Assembly (NCBI GenBank): GCA_030576275.1 | Contig: JALIBN010000019.1 | Span: forward strand, 124,001-188,000 | Origin: Pseudomonadota bacterium | Lineage (GTDB): Bacteria; Pseudomonadota; Gammaproteobacteria; Nitrosococcales; Methylophagaceae | Direction: 5' to 3' | Length of the DNA stretch: 64,000 bases | Part shown: one piece after another, positions 20,895 to 27,389 of the stretch | Layout: every line of letters begins with the position of its first letter | Numbering within the stretch: position 1 is the stretch's first letter | Position numbers and translations under genes: made by a program | The notes under the pieces: generated by a model | Databases searched by the model: none | The model's input: the letters and a program-made list of their open reading frames with translations, nothing else | What the model was told of the DNA's origin: nothing

Positions 20895-20941
20895 CATTAT
20901 AGCCTAGGCGATAACTATTGGCTGATTTTAAGGAGTGGATA

Positions 20942-21235
20942 ATGCGTTGTAATTTAATTGTTTTATGTCTGTTGGGCTTTGCCGCTACAACTGTTATTGC
21001 TGAAGAAACTAGAAATGCTGAACTACTAGCGTCATCTTGCGCGGCTTGCCATGGTACAAATGGACATAGTGTGGGTGGACTGCCGAGCTTAGCCGGTGTG
21101 GATAAGCTCTATTTGATTGAACAAATGCAACAATTTGTCAGTGGTGAACGCACGTCGACTGTCATGCTACATCACGCGAGTGGTTATACAGCAGAAGAAA
21201 TTGAATTGATGGCTGACTTTTTTTCAAAACAATAG
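20942..21235 (+). CDS. Periplasmic monohaem cytochrome c, FccA-like
   Basis: The product is a small exported class I cytochrome c, probably an electron carrier in the periplasm. A 20-residue signal peptide ends at A20. The haem site is CAACH (C33, C36, H37), and M75 is the best candidate sixth ligand. The pattern SCAACHGTNG, then RTSTVM and GYTAEEIELMADFF, resembles the cytochrome subunit of flavocytochrome c sulfide dehydrogenase. An in-frame TTG lies upstream at 20918, but AAGGAG 6 bp before the ATG at 20942 decides the start. The likely flavoprotein partner is encoded 22 kb away at 43242-44513. Confidence 0.88.
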   Translation: MRCNLIVLCLLGFAATTVIAEETRNAELLASSCAACHGTNGHSVGGLPSLAGVDKLYLIEQMQQFVSGERTSTVMLHHASGYTAEEIELMADFFSKQ

Positions 21236-21270: not shown

Positions 21271-22098
21271 TTACTTAAGTCTCTGGCATTTTGGACAATA
21301 AAAGGTAGCTCGCTGTGCTTCTTTATAGTGTTCAATGTGAGTGCCGCAGTGAATACAGGGTTCACCTTGTCGACCGTAAACATTGAGCTGTTGAGCAAAA
21401 TATCCTGGCTTACCATCACTTTTCCTGAAATCTTTTAAGGTAGTGCCACCGGCTATGATTGCCTGCGTAAGTATGGCTTTGATGGCTGTTACTAATTTGT
21501 CGCAGTCTTTTTTTGTCAGCTTATTTGCGATTTTTTTTGGATGGATTTCAGCCATAAATAACGCTTCATTTGCATAAATATTACCGACACCAACGACTAC
21601 TTTTCCATCCATAATCAGGGTTTTAGCACTGCATCGACGGTTTCGTGACTTGGCTAACAGATAAGCATCATCGAATGGTTCGGTTAGTGGTTCTGGCCCA
21701 AGATGGCTAAATAGCGGATGCACTTGAATAGGACCTTCAGTCCATAAAATCGAACCGAATCGTCTAGGATCCGTATATCTCAGTATGTGATCATTTTCGA
21801 CAACCATATCAAAATGATCGTGCTTTTCGGGGGGGGGATTTTCACTGACGTTTAAGATTCGCAGTCGACCAGACATGCCAAGATGGATAATTAAAGTACC
21901 GGTATCACATTCCAGTAATAGATATTTCGCGCGACGATACAGTAAATGAATTGTCTGGCCAGTAAGTATCTCAGCAAGACGTGGGTTTATAGGCCAGCGC
22001 AGTGAAAAATTTCGGATCGTGACCTGGCTTATCTTTGTATCTTTGAGAAAGGGTTCTACACCACGCAGTGTAGTTTCAACTTCAGGTAATTCAGGCAT
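21271..22098 (-). CDS. mutM: Formamidopyrimidine-DNA glycosylase
   Basis: MutM (Fpg) removes 8-oxoguanine and other oxidised purines and nicks the resulting abasic site. The catalytic N-terminal proline is in PELPEVE right after the start Met. The conserved lysine K58 is in RRAKYLL. A C-terminal zinc finger has cysteines at 248, 251, 268 and 271, with the RATFYCP motif. It has 275 residues, as usual. Codons 88-90 (three prolines) are CCC CCC CCC, a nine-C run that could slip. The gene lies 11 bp downstream of the DUF4340 gene and is probably in the same operon. Confidence 0.96.
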   Translation of the reverse strand: MPELPEVETTLRGVEPFLKDTKISQVTIRNFSLRWPINPRLAEILTGQTIHLLYRRAKYLLLECDTGTLIIHLGMSGRLRILNVSENPPPEKHDHFDMVVENDHILRYTDPRRFGSILWTEGPIQVHPLFSHLGPEPLTEPFDDAYLLAKSRNRRCSAKTLIMDGKVVVGVGNIYANEALFMAEIHPKKIANKLTKKDCDKLVTAIKAILTQAIIAGGTTLKDFRKSDGKPGYFAQQLNVYGRQGEPCIHCGTHIEHYKEAQRATFYCPKCQRLK

Positions 22099-22109: not shown

Positions 22110-22991
22110 CTATTCGATGGTCTGGAAAGGCAATAATTGTGCAAGTGATTCTAAGGTAAATTGATAGCTGAGCTGTAGTTGATGGTCAACAACAAATAAG
22201 GCGTTATCACTCAGTTTTAACTCATACTTAGTGGGTAATGCTTGATCGTTAAACCAAATTTGTAATTTATGAGTCGCAGTGCTTACGCGACCATTTTCTT
22301 GAAGGGGTAAAACTTGCAATGCGTAGGCATGTTGCCAATTTTGAATGAAGGCGCTCAGTCGATCGGTTGTTATTGTTGGCGAATTACTTTGCCAATGACC
22401 ATTGTTATTTTCGATGATAATTGATTCAGCTGACAGGCTGTTGTCAGTATTGGACTTCGATACAATAAGCTTGGTGATGATATTGGTTTTAGGAAATAAT
22501 TTATTTTCGATAAAGCTTGTGGCATTGGCGCGTAATAATGGCGTAATGCGATCAGTGATTAAGTGAATAACGTTATCGATCAAAACATAACGATGTTTAC
22601 TGATGGGTTCTACGCCACCAAATTGGACACGGTGTTGATCTAAAGTTAAAACAAGATTGGCCGGTTCTAACTCGTACTGGCTGAGGGATTTACCATCGCC
22701 AATTGTTATTTGAGCATAACTCGGTGTGTTTAAAAAACTGAGTAATAATTCAACACGTTTATTATTTGCTATGGCCTTAATGGGCTGAGTGATTTGCCAA
22801 CCAGATGCTGACTTTGCTAATACGATATCTACAATATTTGGTCGAGAAATAGTAATGTAATGAATATTATTGCTGTTGAGTGAACTAAGTTGCGGCATCT
22901 CATTTTCAGCCGAATAATCGAAGGTATTAAACCAATACAATCCAATGATTAAACCTATAAGGATCAGGTTTCTAAGGTAACTTTTTTTCAT
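22110..22991 (-). CDS. DUF4340 domain-containing membrane-anchored protein
   Basis: This 293-residue protein has one N-terminal membrane helix (about 7-23, LRNLILIGLIIGLYWF) and a periplasmic remainder with the repeated beta-rich pattern of DUF4340. Genes of this family typically follow a GldA/GldF/GldG-like ABC transporter, as here. Its start overlaps the stop of the GldG-like gene in ATGA. Its function is not established; a periplasmic accessory of the transporter is the best inference. Confidence 0.8.
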   Translation of the reverse strand: MKKSYLRNLILIGLIIGLYWFNTFDYSAENEMPQLSSLNSNNIHYITISRPNIVDIVLAKSASGWQITQPIKAIANNKRVELLLSFLNTPSYAQITIGDGKSLSQYELEPANLVLTLDQHRVQFGGVEPISKHRYVLIDNVIHLITDRITPLLRANATSFIENKLFPKTNIITKLIVSKSNTDNSLSAESIIIENNNGHWQSNSPTITTDRLSAFIQNWQHAYALQVLPLQENGRVSTATHKLQIWFNDQALPTKYELKLSDNALFVVDHQLQLSYQFTLESLAQLLPFQTIE

Positions 22992-24361
22992 TGTCGACGC
23001 CTATACCACCAAAGGCTTAAGCCAATACCAAGTAGTAATAAAGGCATAACAATTAAAAAGCCGATGCCTATAATTAAGGACTGAGTTTGGTTTAATTGTA
23101 GTTGATTATCTATGGTCGTTTTGACCGGAATGCTGATTAGGGCATCGTCGCCAGCTAGCCAGTTCATTATCGCCATACCAAGTTCAAGATTGCTACCGTT
23201 GCCCAGATAGGTGTTGGATAAAAAGTCACCATCACCAATGATTGCGATGCGTTGTTCTGCGTTTTTTTCTTTCTTTGTCATTGTGCGTGAAAGTAAATAG
23301 CCGATATTAAGTGGACCTTTAGTATCATCGCCAAGATTAAAAACAAAAGGTTGTTCAGCTCCTTCCTTAGGGGGCGTTGTCTCACTCCAGACATTAGCGT
23401 GAGTGGTTAATAGCGGCAAATATTGCCAATCAACATCGTCATTTGGAATCTGTTCGAGCGCCACGGCTTGTGGAAATACCGTTACGCCCGAGGTCGCTTG
23501 CCCGATAGGATGATTAGCATAATCTGTAATCAACACAAATTGTGGATCGCTGATACCCAATTTTTGGGCATTAGGATCTATAATAATACTCGGTATAAAT
23601 TCTAGTTCGAGTTGTTCGCCTAGTCCAGCTAGGAATTGATTACTATCTGGTTCGGCTAACCAGAGTAAATTACCACCATTAGCGACATAGTTTTTTATGA
23701 TATCAATTTCGCCATCCAACCACTCACTTTCAGGACTAGCAATCACAACGGCAGTCGCATTATTAGGAATTTCATTATTTTCAACCAAATTTAGTGGTAG
23801 AAATTTAAAGCCTTTTTGCATGAGTTGATCGCCCCAAACACTGAGGTTGTAATTAGCTGAATTAAGCGGACTGCGTTCTCCATGACCTTCAATAAAAACT
23901 AGCCATTGTTCTTGTTGCCGAGAGACTGTGATGAGGGCGTTAGTTAACGATTGCTCAGATAGATCAAAGACGTGTGTTTGTTTGTCTCCCTGCGCGACAA
24001 CCATTTCACCTTGTTGTTGGATCTTGAGTTCGCGAACTAAGTCTGGCGAGAAGTCTGGATTGATATAGCTGACATTGAGTTGAGAATTATGACTTTGGTA
24101 ACTTGAAAGTAACGATTCTAAAGCTGGGCGATATTCGCTACTTGGGCTGATGAAAGCTTGAATAGTAATAGTTTGATCAAGATGAGTTAGAAAATTGGTG
24201 GTGATCTTGGAAAGGCTATGGCGGTTGTTTGCCGTCCAATCACTGCGGATATTTGTTTTAAGTGAGAGCTGCGCTAATAATGCAACCACAATAATCACCA
24301 GTATATAAAAAATGATGTTTTGTAGTTTAAGTTGGCGCTGTATTTTTTGAGTGATGTTCAT
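22988..24361 (-). CDS. GldG-like ABC transporter auxiliary protein
   Basis: The protein has membrane segments at both ends (about 14-36 and 425-450 of 457 residues) and a large periplasmic domain between them, as in the GldG / ABC-type uncharacterised transport auxiliary family. The N-terminal TM is followed by SDWTANNRHSLSKIT, a recognisable family feature. I chose the ATG at 24361, one base after the stop of the permease gene; an ATG at 24382 and a TTG at 24385 would overlap that gene. The exported substrate is unknown. Confidence 0.82.
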   Translation of the reverse strand: MNITQKIQRQLKLQNIIFYILVIIVVALLAQLSLKTNIRSDWTANNRHSLSKITTNFLTHLDQTITIQAFISPSSEYRPALESLLSSYQSHNSQLNVSYINPDFSPDLVRELKIQQQGEMVVAQGDKQTHVFDLSEQSLTNALITVSRQQEQWLVFIEGHGERSPLNSANYNLSVWGDQLMQKGFKFLPLNLVENNEIPNNATAVVIASPESEWLDGEIDIIKNYVANGGNLLWLAEPDSNQFLAGLGEQLELEFIPSIIIDPNAQKLGISDPQFVLITDYANHPIGQATSGVTVFPQAVALEQIPNDDVDWQYLPLLTTHANVWSETTPPKEGAEQPFVFNLGDDTKGPLNIGYLLSRTMTKKEKNAEQRIAIIGDGDFLSNTYLGNGSNLELGMAIMNWLAGDDALISIPVKTTIDNQLQLNQTQSLIIGIGFLIVMPLLLLGIGLSLWWYRRRQ

Positions 24362-24362
24362 T

Positions 24363-25115
24363 TTAATTGAGTCGTTCAGCATCAAGTCGGCGAATAGTTA
24401 AGGCTAAAAATGCCACAATAATAATTAAGTAATAGGCTACGTCGCTACTGTTTACTTCGCCTTGCAATAAAGGTTCATAGTGTCTTAATAAGGATAACCA
24501 GCTGAATAGATCTGATGTCGACGCCGTCACTTGTGTATTGCCAGCCCAATCAATTATCCATAATAAAAATAGGGTGGCAAAGGTAGTCACTGCGGCAATA
24601 GTGGGTTGCGTCGTCAGCGAGGATAAAAATAAGCCTATGGCTGTAAAGCTAGACACTAATAAGGTTAAACCCAACAAGCCCGCGGTAATAACACCATAGT
24701 CTAAATCTGCCCCTAAGCTCAGCGATAGTGGCATCAGGCTGATTAGAATAAGTAGGATAATGAAAAAGCTCAGGGTGCCTAGATATTTACCGATAACAAT
24801 CTGCCTAATCGATAGCGGGGCGGAAAATAATAAGGGTAAACTGTTATTACGACGTTCTTCTGCAATAAGTCGCATCGTGATCAGTGGTGCAATTAATAAT
24901 AAGATAGTGGCGGCATTATTTAATAAAGGTATCGCAATCAGTTCGGTTACGCCAGGAGCACCTGGAATAGCCGATATTTTGCCTTGGAGTTGCATGAAAT
25001 AATCAATATGGGTCAAAAATAAATAGGCAATAAGGAGCTGACACAATGCCAAAATTACCCATGCGAGGGGAGATAAAAATAAACGGTAAAGTTCATTGCG
25101 AGCAAGCGTAAACAT
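24363..25115 (-). CDS. ABC-2 type permease, GldF-like
   Basis: This is the membrane component of an ABC transporter, 250 residues with six hydrophobic segments. The N-terminal FTLARNELYRLFLSPLAWV resembles GldF and other ABC-2 permeases. The frame is open 99 bp further upstream, but the ATG at 25115 shares its A with the stop of the ATPase gene (TAATG), a typical coupled start. It pairs with the ATPase upstream and the GldG-like protein downstream. Confidence 0.87.
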   Translation of the reverse strand: MFTLARNELYRLFLSPLAWVILALCQLLIAYLFLTHIDYFMQLQGKISAIPGAPGVTELIAIPLLNNAATILLLIAPLITMRLIAEERRNNSLPLLFSAPLSIRQIVIGKYLGTLSFFIILLILISLMPLSLSLGADLDYGVITAGLLGLTLLVSSFTAIGLFLSSLTTQPTIAAVTTFATLFLLWIIDWAGNTQVTASTSDLFSWLSLLRHYEPLLQGEVNSSDVAYYLIIIVAFLALTIRRLDAERLN

Positions 25116-26065
25116 TAGATCGTTTGACCCACAGTCACAGATTCTTGTTGAATGATGTTCATAAATACATCTTCTAATGAATGTTGTTCGGGCATCAGCT
25201 CTGTTAACTGCCACTGTTGCATTACTGCACGGCTAAGCAACTCAGTAGTAGGATTAATATCGGGTTGGTAATGTATACGAAATTGCGTGGGATTTAAGGT
25301 CTCTACAGAGATAACGCCAGTAATTTCCTGCAATGCGCCCAATGGTGGTGGCGAAAGTAATGTACACAGTAAATTGGAGACTTGGCGCTGTTTATTTAGA
25401 GCTGAGATGGTGTCACTAAAAATTAAGTGACCATGACTTATGATTTGTACTCGGTCACATAACATCTGCACTTCAGGCAAAATATGAGTCGATAAAATAA
25501 CGCTGTGTTCGGTGGCTAAATCACGAATTAAATGGCGAATTTCTCGGATTTGAATAGGGTCGAGTCCTGAGGTAGGCTCATCGAGGATTACCACGGCAGG
25601 GGTATGAATAATGGCTTGTGCGATGCCAACACGCTGTTGATAGCCTTTTGATAAATTAGCAATTAGGCGTTTGGTCATATCACCTAAACCGCAGCGCTCG
25701 ATCGCGGTGTTAACTGCCGAATTGATGTTGTTAGAGGGAATGAGATTGATTTTGGCACAAAAATATAAAAATTCCTTAACCGTTAACTCTTTGTAAAGTG
25801 GCGGTTGTTCTGGCAGATAACCAATGTGCGCTTTTGCTTGTTTTGGTTGATTTAATAAATCATAGCCATTGATCGTAATTTGTCCATGATTGGGTGCAAG
25901 ATTGCCGCTGAGCATTTTCATGGTAGTGCTTTTTCCTGCACCATTAGGACCGAGGAAACCTAAAACCTCACCTTTATAAATATCAAAACTCACCTTGTTT
26001 ACGGCAAGGTGAGTGCCGTAATGGTGGGAGAGTGACTGTGCAGAAAGAAGTGGTGATGAACTCAT
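25115..26065 (-). CDS. ABC transporter ATP-binding protein, GldA-like
   Basis: The ATPase has Walker A GPNGAGKST at 39-47, the signature LSKGYQQR at 138-145 and Walker B VVILDEPTSG at 158-167. At 316 residues it has the extra C-terminal domain usual for ABC-2 export ATPases. Together with the following permease, GldG-like and DUF4340 genes it would form one transporter. In Bacteroidetes the related Gld proteins are linked to gliding; in Proteobacteria the role is unknown. It lies 7 bp after the EAL-HDOD gene. Confidence 0.92.
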   Translation of the reverse strand: MSSSPLLSAQSLSHHYGTHLAVNKVSFDIYKGEVLGFLGPNGAGKSTTMKMLSGNLAPNHGQITINGYDLLNQPKQAKAHIGYLPEQPPLYKELTVKEFLYFCAKINLIPSNNINSAVNTAIERCGLGDMTKRLIANLSKGYQQRVGIAQAIIHTPAVVILDEPTSGLDPIQIREIRHLIRDLATEHSVILSTHILPEVQMLCDRVQIISHGHLIFSDTISALNKQRQVSNLLCTLLSPPPLGALQEITGVISVETLNPTQFRIHYQPDINPTTELLSRAVMQQWQLTELMPEQHSLEDVFMNIIQQESVTVGQTI

Positions 26066-26072
26066 GGAATGT

Positions 26073-27296
26073 TTATAAGCTCGATTGAGTTTCTATGGTC
26101 CACTCGGTGGCATTTATGTAATGCATTCCAAGCTGTTCTAGCGAGATTTGTGTGGTGTCAACTTCATCCCATAAACCATGTTCATATTGAATGACAGCCT
26201 TTAGTAGTTGCCCTAAACTGCCCTGCCGTCCAGATAGCGCTTGCTTGATATCATTATTTAAAGGTAATGATTTTAAGAGTTTATCCATAGGATGCGACAA
26301 CATGGCATCAATAGTTGAAAATAAACCCACTAAAAATCCCGTTTCATTTGCGCAATTGTAATCTGGGGCTAATTGTTGACACATTTTAGCTCGAATAAGG
26401 GTATTAGCCATCAATTCGGGTGGGGAACACTTCATATCATTAAGGGCGATTAATGTGGTCCATGTTCTAATAGCTTTGAGACCTAAAAGAATCAGAGCTT
26501 GTTTGATAGACTCTATTTTTCTTCGTAGCCCAATGGCAGCAGAATTGAGTAACCTAAGCAATTTATAAGTTAGACCTACATCTTGACTGATCAATTGTTC
26601 AACATCATCAATCTCTACATCGGGATTTTGTAGCTTTGTGATGATGGAAAGTAAGTTAAGTTGACTATCTGGTATCGCTTGACCTTCGATAATGGTGGGG
26701 CGACTAAAAAAATAGCCCTGAAAATAATCAAATCCTAATTTTTTGCATAGCTGAAACTGTTCATGAGTTTCTACTTTTTCGGCAAGCAGTTTGACCTTTT
26801 CTTGGTTTAATAATGTTACCTGTTCTTTCAGCGCTTGTTCACTTAAAGCCAATAGATCAATTTTGATGATCTCAGCTAATTTTACTAATGGTCTTAAGGA
26901 TTCATCAAAGATAAAATCATCTAAGGCAATAACATAACCTTGATCAACTAATTTTTGGGTGGCAGCAATCAGTTCATCATCCGCTACAATATCTTCAAGA
27001 ATTTCTAAAACCACGCGATCTTGAGCAAATGGCAGAGGATCATCGGTCAAGATAAATTTACGTGTTAAGTTTACAAAAGCGAGATGATTGCCAATAACAC
27101 GTTCGATACCCAATTCCATGAAAGTATGATTGATTACGAGGCTGGTTGCTTCATCACCCCAAGCATCGACGACCCCCGAGTCTGTCTGTTTGTTGTTACT
27201 ACGAAATAGTAACTCATAGGCATAGACATTCAAATCTTTATCGAAGATTGCTTGTCTGGCAACTATTGGAGCGTTATTGAGAAATGAACCAGACAT
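26073..27296 (-). CDS. Degenerate EAL plus HDOD domain signalling protein
   Basis: The 407-residue protein joins an N-terminal EAL-like domain (about 10-200) to a C-terminal HDOD domain (about 205-390), the layout of YuxH/CdgJ-type proteins. The EAL motif reads ELL (28-30). AEKVET and a lysine in IIKID are kept, but the catalytic loop DDFGTGYSS is replaced by DDFIFDES, so phosphodiesterase activity is unlikely and a binding or adaptor role is more probable. AAAGGGA lies ahead of the ATG. It stands 8 bp before the ABC ATPase gene and may sense or regulate that system. Confidence 0.87.
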   Translation of the reverse strand: MSGSFLNNAPIVARQAIFDKDLNVYAYELLFRSNNKQTDSGVVDAWGDEATSLVINHTFMELGIERVIGNHLAFVNLTRKFILTDDPLPFAQDRVVLEILEDIVADDELIAATQKLVDQGYVIALDDFIFDESLRPLVKLAEIIKIDLLALSEQALKEQVTLLNQEKVKLLAEKVETHEQFQLCKKLGFDYFQGYFFSRPTIIEGQAIPDSQLNLLSIITKLQNPDVEIDDVEQLISQDVGLTYKLLRLLNSAAIGLRRKIESIKQALILLGLKAIRTWTTLIALNDMKCSPPELMANTLIRAKMCQQLAPDYNCANETGFLVGLFSTIDAMLSHPMDKLLKSLPLNNDIKQALSGRQGSLGQLLKAVIQYEHGLWDEVDTTQISLEQLGMHYINATEWTIETQSSL

Positions 27297-27361: not shown

Positions 27362-27389
27362 AAAAAAACCCGCAAAAAAGCAGGTTTTA
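27362..27389 (-). terminator. Rho-independent terminator after rpmG
   Basis: Read on the minus strand, ACCTGC and GCGGGT arms form a short stem with one G-T pair and a T-rich loop, followed by a run of seven T. It lies 25 bp after the rpmG stop and separates the ribosomal genes from the EAL-HDOD gene. Confidence 0.75.

Follow-up and report, generated by a model that had tools for sequence, protein, structure and literature searches.

Why do five genes stand between rpmG and mutM in a gammaproteobacterium of the family Methylophagaceae, when rpmB, rpmG and mutM are neighbours in Escherichia coli K-12? The locus lies in a stretch of 64,000 nucleotides (positions 124,001 to 188,000 of contig JALIBN010000019.1, assembly GCA_030576275.1), hereafter the window, and codes for an EAL-HDOD protein, an ATP-binding cassette (ABC) ATPase, an ABC-2 permease, a GldG-like protein and a DUF4340 protein, followed by mutM. 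An earlier note, made from the sequence alone, had described a five-gene block inserted between rpmB-rpmG and mutM; the genes, their domains and their place were borne out by the open reading frame listing, Pfam and NCBIfam, and so was the arrangement in E. coli. The insertion was not. The four Gld-type genes, from the ABC gene to the DUF4340 gene, probably form together with mutM an old gammaproteobacterial unit, to judge from gene order and protein distances across the class, and the EAL-HDOD gene appears to be a facultative member of it.

The comparison is based on relatives of the GldG-like protein. A protein search of 59 related genomes gave a match in 44, and a search of a wider contig collection matched at least 593 stretches, at least 581 of them encoding a relative, from which the best 80 were taken. 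In addition, a profile search of 370 genomes of the class gave a match at E <= 0.001 in 243 of them, with a strong match (E <= 1e-40) in 215 by hand count, a figure that may include a second Gld type. From the listed matches a class sample of 80 loci was hand-picked, covering 58 family codes with one to four loci each and excluding the window's own family; all the loci fetched had E values below 1e-139. Neighbourhoods were fetched and their genes labelled with profiles built from these loci, and 25 of 202 GldG loci that were duplicated between collections were removed before distinct loci were counted. Two of the 80 class loci (L214 and L240) and one of the 80 loci named from the wider collection (L163) yielded no GldG gene. 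In the class sample the ABC gene was found upstream of GldG in 71 loci, the permease gene in 72 and DUF4340 downstream in 65, and mutM was a same-strand neighbour no more than five genes away in 60 (42 family codes), directly adjacent in 49. Among all distinct loci outside the window's family mutM was found at this distance and orientation in 118 of 139 (of these 139 loci, 135 show mutM or reach three or more genes downstream), and inside the family it was kept in 35 of 38.

Furthermore, the pairwise distances of the Gld proteins followed those of mutM over 120 loci (r of 0.78 for GldG, 0.71 for ABC, 0.74 for DUF4340 and 0.65 for the permease), which fits vertical descent. An insertion or a mobile origin was rejected on the class-wide synteny; two plasmid records encode a distant GldG (22-24% identity). 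The fullest order, found for example in L177, L192 and L204, runs rpmG, a desaturase, EAL-HDOD, a hydantoinase, a protoglobin-GGDEF gene, ABC, permease and GldG, with desaturase, hydantoinase and protoglobin-GGDEF on the opposite strand; DUF4340 and mutM then follow in most of these loci, and radC and rpmB precede rpmG in stretches long enough to include them. What lies between rpmG and ABC differs among loci. E. coli K-12 has the radC-like yicR, rpmB, rpmG and mutM in this order. In the control genomes, E. coli included, DUF4340 had no match, and ABC_transp_aux had matches in Synechococcus and Haloferax only. Given the class-wide series ABC-permease-GldG-DUF4340-mutM, the E. coli order is most readily understood as a reduced one, loss in that lineage being the simpler account. 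mutM itself is a conserved neighbour that we read as a passenger.

In the window the six genes from EAL-HDOD to mutM are arranged head to tail (Table 1). Their junctions, read from the sequence, are a gap of 7 base pairs (bp) between EAL-HDOD and ABC, a 1 bp overlap of ABC and permease (-1), a gap of 1 bp between permease and GldG, a 4 bp overlap of GldG and DUF4340 (-4) and a gap of 11 bp before mutM, in agreement with the overlaps or gaps under 12 bp given by the earlier note. For the permease and GldG genes the starts were picked from the sequence, and the automatic listing of open reading frames has longer forms of both. Between rpmG and EAL-HDOD the gap is 118 bp and contains a hairpin followed by a T tract, suggesting that the unit probably begins its own transcript at EAL-HDOD, from which the six genes would be co-transcribed, and that the hairpin probably separates it from rpmB-rpmG. 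A stretch of 65 nucleotides comprising this hairpin folds at -14 kcal/mol (z -2.8), with 2 of 200 shuffles equally good, and a general scan for terminator patterns did not have it among its matches. A scan for sigma-70 promoters gave fewer sites than in shuffled sequence.

Table 1. Features of the EAL-HDOD-to-mutM unit, with coordinates in the window
Feature	Coordinates	Strand	Evidence
EAL-HDOD protein, 407 amino acids (aa)	26073..27296	-	Pfam EAL 54 bits and HDOD 75 bits, both above cut-offs
GldA-like ABC ATPase, 316 aa	25115..26065	-	Pfam ABC_tran 123 bits; top NCBIfam model GldA, 299.7 bits (402.6 needed)
GldF-like ABC-2 permease, 250 aa	24363..25115	-	PF12679 54 bits (longer start); TIGR03518 GldF 107.7 bits (288.5 needed)
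GldG-like protein, 457 aa	22988..24361	-	ABC_transp_aux PF09822 76 bits; DUF7088 42 bits
DUF4340 protein, 293 aa	22110..22991	-	PF14238 34.7 bits (Pfam gathering cut-off of 25 passed)
mutM (Fpg), last gene of the unit	21271..22098	-	TIGR00577 316 bits
Putative intrinsic terminator 3' of rpmG	about 27362..27388	-	Hairpin and T tract

The core of the unit had been called a Gld-type transporter, and the name is appropriate: the top NCBIfam models for ATPase, permease and GldG-like protein were GldA (TIGR03522), GldF (TIGR03518) and GldG (TIGR03521), respectively, and, as in GldA-GldF-GldG of Flavobacterium, an ATPase, an ABC-2 permease and an auxiliary subunit with a GIFT domain are encoded together. 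It differs from the Flavobacterium system in that all three scores are below the cut-offs (68.2 bits for GldG against 389.85 needed, the others in Table 1) and in that the set is followed by the DUF4340 gene and mutM. The module may work like GldAFG but should not be filed as GldAFG. In Flavobacterium johnsoniae, according to the available part of the study, the membrane localisation of GldA needs GldF and GldG, and the stability of GldK/PorK needs GldF (PMC9127263). A gammaproteobacterial trio resembling gldA, gldF and gldG appears in the genome report of Thiothrix nivea, the accessible portion of which mentions neither DUF4340, mutM and EAL-HDOD nor a conservation throughout the class (PMC3368414).

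The predicted structures fit a complex reaching out of the membrane. The ATPase carries the motifs GPNGAGKST, LSKGYQQR and DEPTSGLD, which we take to be those of an active ABC ATPase. The sole PDB match of the permease profile was NosY (PDB 7o0y; E 0.011, profile positions 54-187). NosDFY is an ABC complex with a periplasmic partner, and we know of no relation of NosD to GldG or DUF4340. In the model of the GldG-like protein (460-aa form; predicted local distance difference test score, pLDDT, of 86) helices at both termini flank a thioredoxin-like domain, cysteine-free in the window protein, and a GIFT domain (model residues 150-411) that is closest to IFT52 (Z 22.8, 2.4 Å over 213 residues) and also near the oligosaccharyltransferase subunits OST48/Wbp1 (Z 20-23). 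The DUF4340 model (pLDDT 93.3) has a single N-terminal helix and a beta-rich domain. Against the PDB it gave no Foldseek match at E <= 0.001, and its best VIA Z was 6.5, to a thioesterase-like protein; no PDB relative was convincing, and we claim neither a relative nor a new fold. DUF4340 had little mention in the literature searched; one Verrucomicrobium protein with this domain was scored essential, as stated in the available section of that work (PMC12283558). In seven loci (L114, L116, L117, L120, L121, L175 and L178) a small gene resembling staphylococcal nuclease stands between the permease and GldG genes; that of L114, the sole one scanned, gave 38.5 bits with Pfam SNase.

The first gene of the unit codes for a protein with an N-terminal EAL match (residues 91-200) and a C-terminal HDOD match (215-329), whose EAL domain had been regarded as degenerate. 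Its loop 6 is indeed altered, reading DDFIFDE in place of what we take to be the canonical DDFGxG, and at least 59 of 60 aligned EAL-HDOD copies have another residue in place of the G, indicating that the altered loop is a feature of the class. Degenerate is nevertheless not the proper word. The nine catalytic or metal-binding positions that we presume from RocR, positioned by eye, are all present in the window protein (E28, N76, E98, D126, D127, K145, E173, E176 and Q193), and of 49 distinct full-length copies from Gld loci 48 retain all nine, in a count that took the window copy as reference and, like the tree described below, excluded copies shorter than 371 aa (such as the split one of L067). 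The remaining distinct protein (L152/L174, same contig) lacks four of the nine. In addition, the EAL signature of the window protein is ELL, as in ZpdA of Vibrio cholerae. ZpdA, an EAL-HDOD protein with an ELL active site, lowers cyclic di-GMP (c-di-GMP) and its form changed from ELL to AAA does not; the same architecture, N-terminal EAL and C-terminal HDOD, is found in CdgJ and VC1851 of V. cholerae and in phosphodiesterases of Geobacter and Bacillus, as reported in the portion of that paper at hand (PMC12607878). ZpdA differs in being encoded in a zinc-regulated island operon, alongside which the same portion names no Gld transporter (PMC12607878). The window protein is thus probably an active c-di-GMP phosphodiesterase of the ZpdA/CdgJ architecture. 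A paralogue on the same contig, contig 19 (L089 / C19:4299-5483), has an EAL half without the catalytic residues, and Pfam sees only HDOD in it.

How tightly this gene belongs to the unit varies with the lineage. Of the 29 distinct loci of the window's family that show three or more genes upstream, 18 have it immediately ahead of ABC; where family loci carry the gene, its spacing from ABC ranges from -59 to +11 bp (automatic starts, the large overlaps being upper estimates). Among 106 distinct loci from outside the family, 3 have it in this immediate position and 24 have it anywhere in the upstream flank; in 15 of the 15 upstream-flank loci with rpmB/G on the stretch it stands between rpmG and ABC, mostly separated from the latter by an opposite-strand hydantoinase and/or diguanylate cyclase. 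In a maximum-likelihood tree of 70 EAL-HDOD copies, where the window copy has no row and is represented by its 88% identical relative L043, the 22 family copies formed one clade (100/99), and its sister (97/94) comprised L145, L177 and L195, from another family, with the gene between rpmG and ABC. Outside the family the EAL-HDOD distances also track those of mutM (r 0.78, 19 loci, none of 2000 Mantel permutations as high). The position of the sister copies and the synteny outside the family suggest an old neighbour of rpmG, and its direct contact with the transporter in the Methylophaga family would have come from the loss of intervening genes.

At the level of whole genomes, strong GldG matches were found in 104 of 136 genomes with EAL-HDOD against 111 of 234 without it (odds ratio 3.6, Fisher p 4e-8; hand-counted over the 370 genomes, by a statistic that ignores phylogeny and genome size). 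The co-occurrence expected by the earlier note therefore holds as an association, and not as a requirement of either for the other. Its idea of one operon and one function stands similarly in part: the unit is tight by spacing and the four transporter genes travel together throughout the class, and EAL-HDOD, to judge from its distribution, would be a facultative member and not a required or strict one. Twenty further EAL-HDOD regions, mostly without GldG listed near, were inspected; 15 showed neither rpmB/G nor GldG on the fetched stretch, some of them cut by the contig end. One locus, L264 (genome G119), has the order rpmB-rpmG-desaturase-EAL-HDOD-hydantoinase-mutM with no Gld gene labelled, and looks like a loss of the transporter with its neighbours retained. 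As for variants, L047 has two tandem EAL-HDOD copies before the ABC gene, and in L051, L053 and L070 a gene of 400-410 aa precedes EAL-HDOD; the gene at this place in L099 (same contig as L053) is presumably similar to an FAD-dependent oxidoreductase. PilS-PilR, suspected next to EAL-HDOD from a pair of genes of 580 and 450 aa in several loci, got no support when the window's own kinase/regulator pair was used as query, and we take the 580 and 450 aa pair to be phosphotransferase system (PTS) enzyme I and MgtE.

A second c-di-GMP gene adjoins the ABC gene in other lineages. A GGDEF gene stands directly before and divergent to ABC in 11 of 70 class-sample loci (L177, L178, L188, L190, L192, L198, L200, L204, L207, L220 and L223, from 10 family codes; genes of 341-381 codons), compared with 8 of 720 at the remaining positions within nine genes on either side. 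The 11 loci are related by descent and do not amount to 11 independent events. Some of the genes used to build the profile came from this very position, which makes their orthologs easier to find than other GGDEF genes. The ten of these proteins that were scanned (all except L207) were protoglobin-GGDEF proteins, mutually 38-55% identical except for L223 (26-29%), a distant version at the same position. None of the 29 distinct loci of the window's family has a GGDEF gene there. The window's genome has a single protoglobin-GGDEF, elsewhere (C32), with 27-32% identity to the Gld-adjacent ones and no match to L223 at 1e-10; considered as a displaced partner, it is probably not an ortholog, given the 38-55% among those adjacent to Gld. 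On the strength of gene position, the divergent GGDEF would be the best independent support for a link with c-di-GMP. We may tentatively go further, to a possibility that we hold as less probable than its opposite: an envelope machine under local c-di-GMP control by two neighbours of opposite activity, a divergent and probably oxygen-sensing protoglobin cyclase and an upstream EAL-HDOD phosphodiesterase, of which lineages would retain both, one or neither, the Methylophaga family having fused the phosphodiesterase into the operon without an adjacent cyclase.

Our favoured explanation, which we rate slightly above an even chance, is that of a Gld-type ATP-driven envelope complex encoded by an old unit that ends in mutM, with a facultative c-di-GMP phosphodiesterase as neighbour. 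The ABC ATPase, the GldF-like permease, the GldG-like protein and the DUF4340 protein would form one inner-membrane complex. The ATPase would drive a permease dimer, and GldG and DUF4340, anchored by their terminal helices and with their large domains predicted outside the membrane, would relay the conformational change into the periplasm. The predicted folds, the NosY match of the permease, the Flavobacterium data on GldF and GldG and the Verrucomicrobium DUF4340 protein together point to such a machine acting mechanically on the envelope through periplasmic subunits; its target would be a component of the envelope, in the assembly, extraction or positioning of a surface structure, and not a small solute to be imported, and its work might bear on surface behaviour. 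The EAL-HDOD gene was probably placed just after rpmG ancestrally, and in the Methylophaga relatives the loss of the opposite-strand genes between it and ABC would have made it the first gene of the Gld unit, where it could couple the expression of the unit to local breakdown of c-di-GMP.

Several observations weigh against this explanation. Of 26 family loci with rpmG and ABC on the contig, 8 keep the transporter and lack EAL-HDOD (one of the eight, L045, retains a 47-aa remnant), and in one of the 18 family loci counted as positive (L067) the gene is split by a stop. In the EAL-HDOD tree support is weak at the deep forks, and copies without linkage fall between linked ones, so that the ancestral place of the gene is not proven, and the association with GldG is uncorrected for phylogeny and genome size. 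The scores with the GldA, GldF and GldG models all fall short of the NCBIfam equivalog cut-offs, which means that the function is not transferable from Flavobacterium, and the NosY match is weak and spans part of the permease chain. In the class sample, 18 of the 78 loci with GldG show no mutM within five genes, several of them near contig ends. Finally, the genome has another complete Gld-type set, on contig 6 (L088:8396-13199; ABC, permease, a GldG of 636 aa and a DUF4340 of 371 aa), which could hold the main role; its GldG and DUF4340 have higher Pfam scores than the window copies and it adjoins a DUF2333 gene.

The same data can be read in other ways. All five genes might be one dedicated system, with EAL-HDOD as a c-di-GMP sensor that gates the Gld complex directly. 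The close spacing in family loci that have the gene, the association over the 370 genomes and the enrichment of GGDEF divergent to ABC speak for it, but the family loci that keep the transporter without EAL-HDOD, the very few direct contacts outside the family and the retained catalytic residues, which suggest an enzyme rather than a pure receptor, make it improbable in our view. To a comparable degree we doubt that the adjacency of EAL-HDOD, the Gld genes and mutM beside ribosomal-protein genes is simply inherited, with no shared function, the operon of the family being an accident of gene loss. It is true that outside the family EAL-HDOD often follows rpmG amid unrelated opposite-strand genes, the desaturase on the rpmG side and the hydantoinase on the ABC side, and that nothing evident ties mutM to an envelope machine. 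Such inheritance does not, however, account well for the tight packing of the four Gld genes and mutM over long times, for a GGDEF enrichment seen solely at the position adjoining the ABC gene, or for the whole-genome association of EAL-HDOD with GldG.

A true exporter of solutes or lipids, of the ABC-2 drug, lipid or polysaccharide type, instead of a mechanical machine, seems to us somewhat less probable still. The permease belongs to the ABC-2 family and the ATPase also resembles DrrA-type exporters (TIGR01188, 227 bits, below its cut-off), but the top ATPase model is GldA and not DrrA, and simple ABC-2 exporters, to our knowledge, have no pair of large accessory proteins with GIFT, thioredoxin-like and beta-rich domains. 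A role in anti-phage defence was also considered and gained no support: PADLOC gave no match for four of the five proteins, and no specific match overall, the ATPase matching parts of seven models (mad3, mad8, AriA, HEC-01A and others), which we read as shared ATPase motifs.

Elsewhere in the genome, flagellar FliG is encoded, together with three PilT-family matches above cut-off and 32 GGDEF matches, some of them fragments. SprA of the type 9 secretion system (T9SS) had no match in this genome, and the control genomes gave none either. Beyond mutM comes a small cytochrome c gene (20918-21235, + strand), which is flanked by mutM and an rluD-like gene, runs on the opposite strand and is also present in many loci of the family.

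No description of a mutM-linked Gld operon was found in the literature searched, a coverage that most subscription-journal papers fall outside. What stands is a widespread Gld-type operon with a phosphodiesterase gene as facultative neighbour, its product probably active, and with a protoglobin diguanylate cyclase beside it in other lineages. The polarity of the comparison is thereby reversed, the familiar rpmB-rpmG-mutM order of E. coli being the one that needs explanation by loss. For the Gld-type ABC complexes outside the Bacteroidota, the locus offers a testable hypothesis with a c-di-GMP handle.

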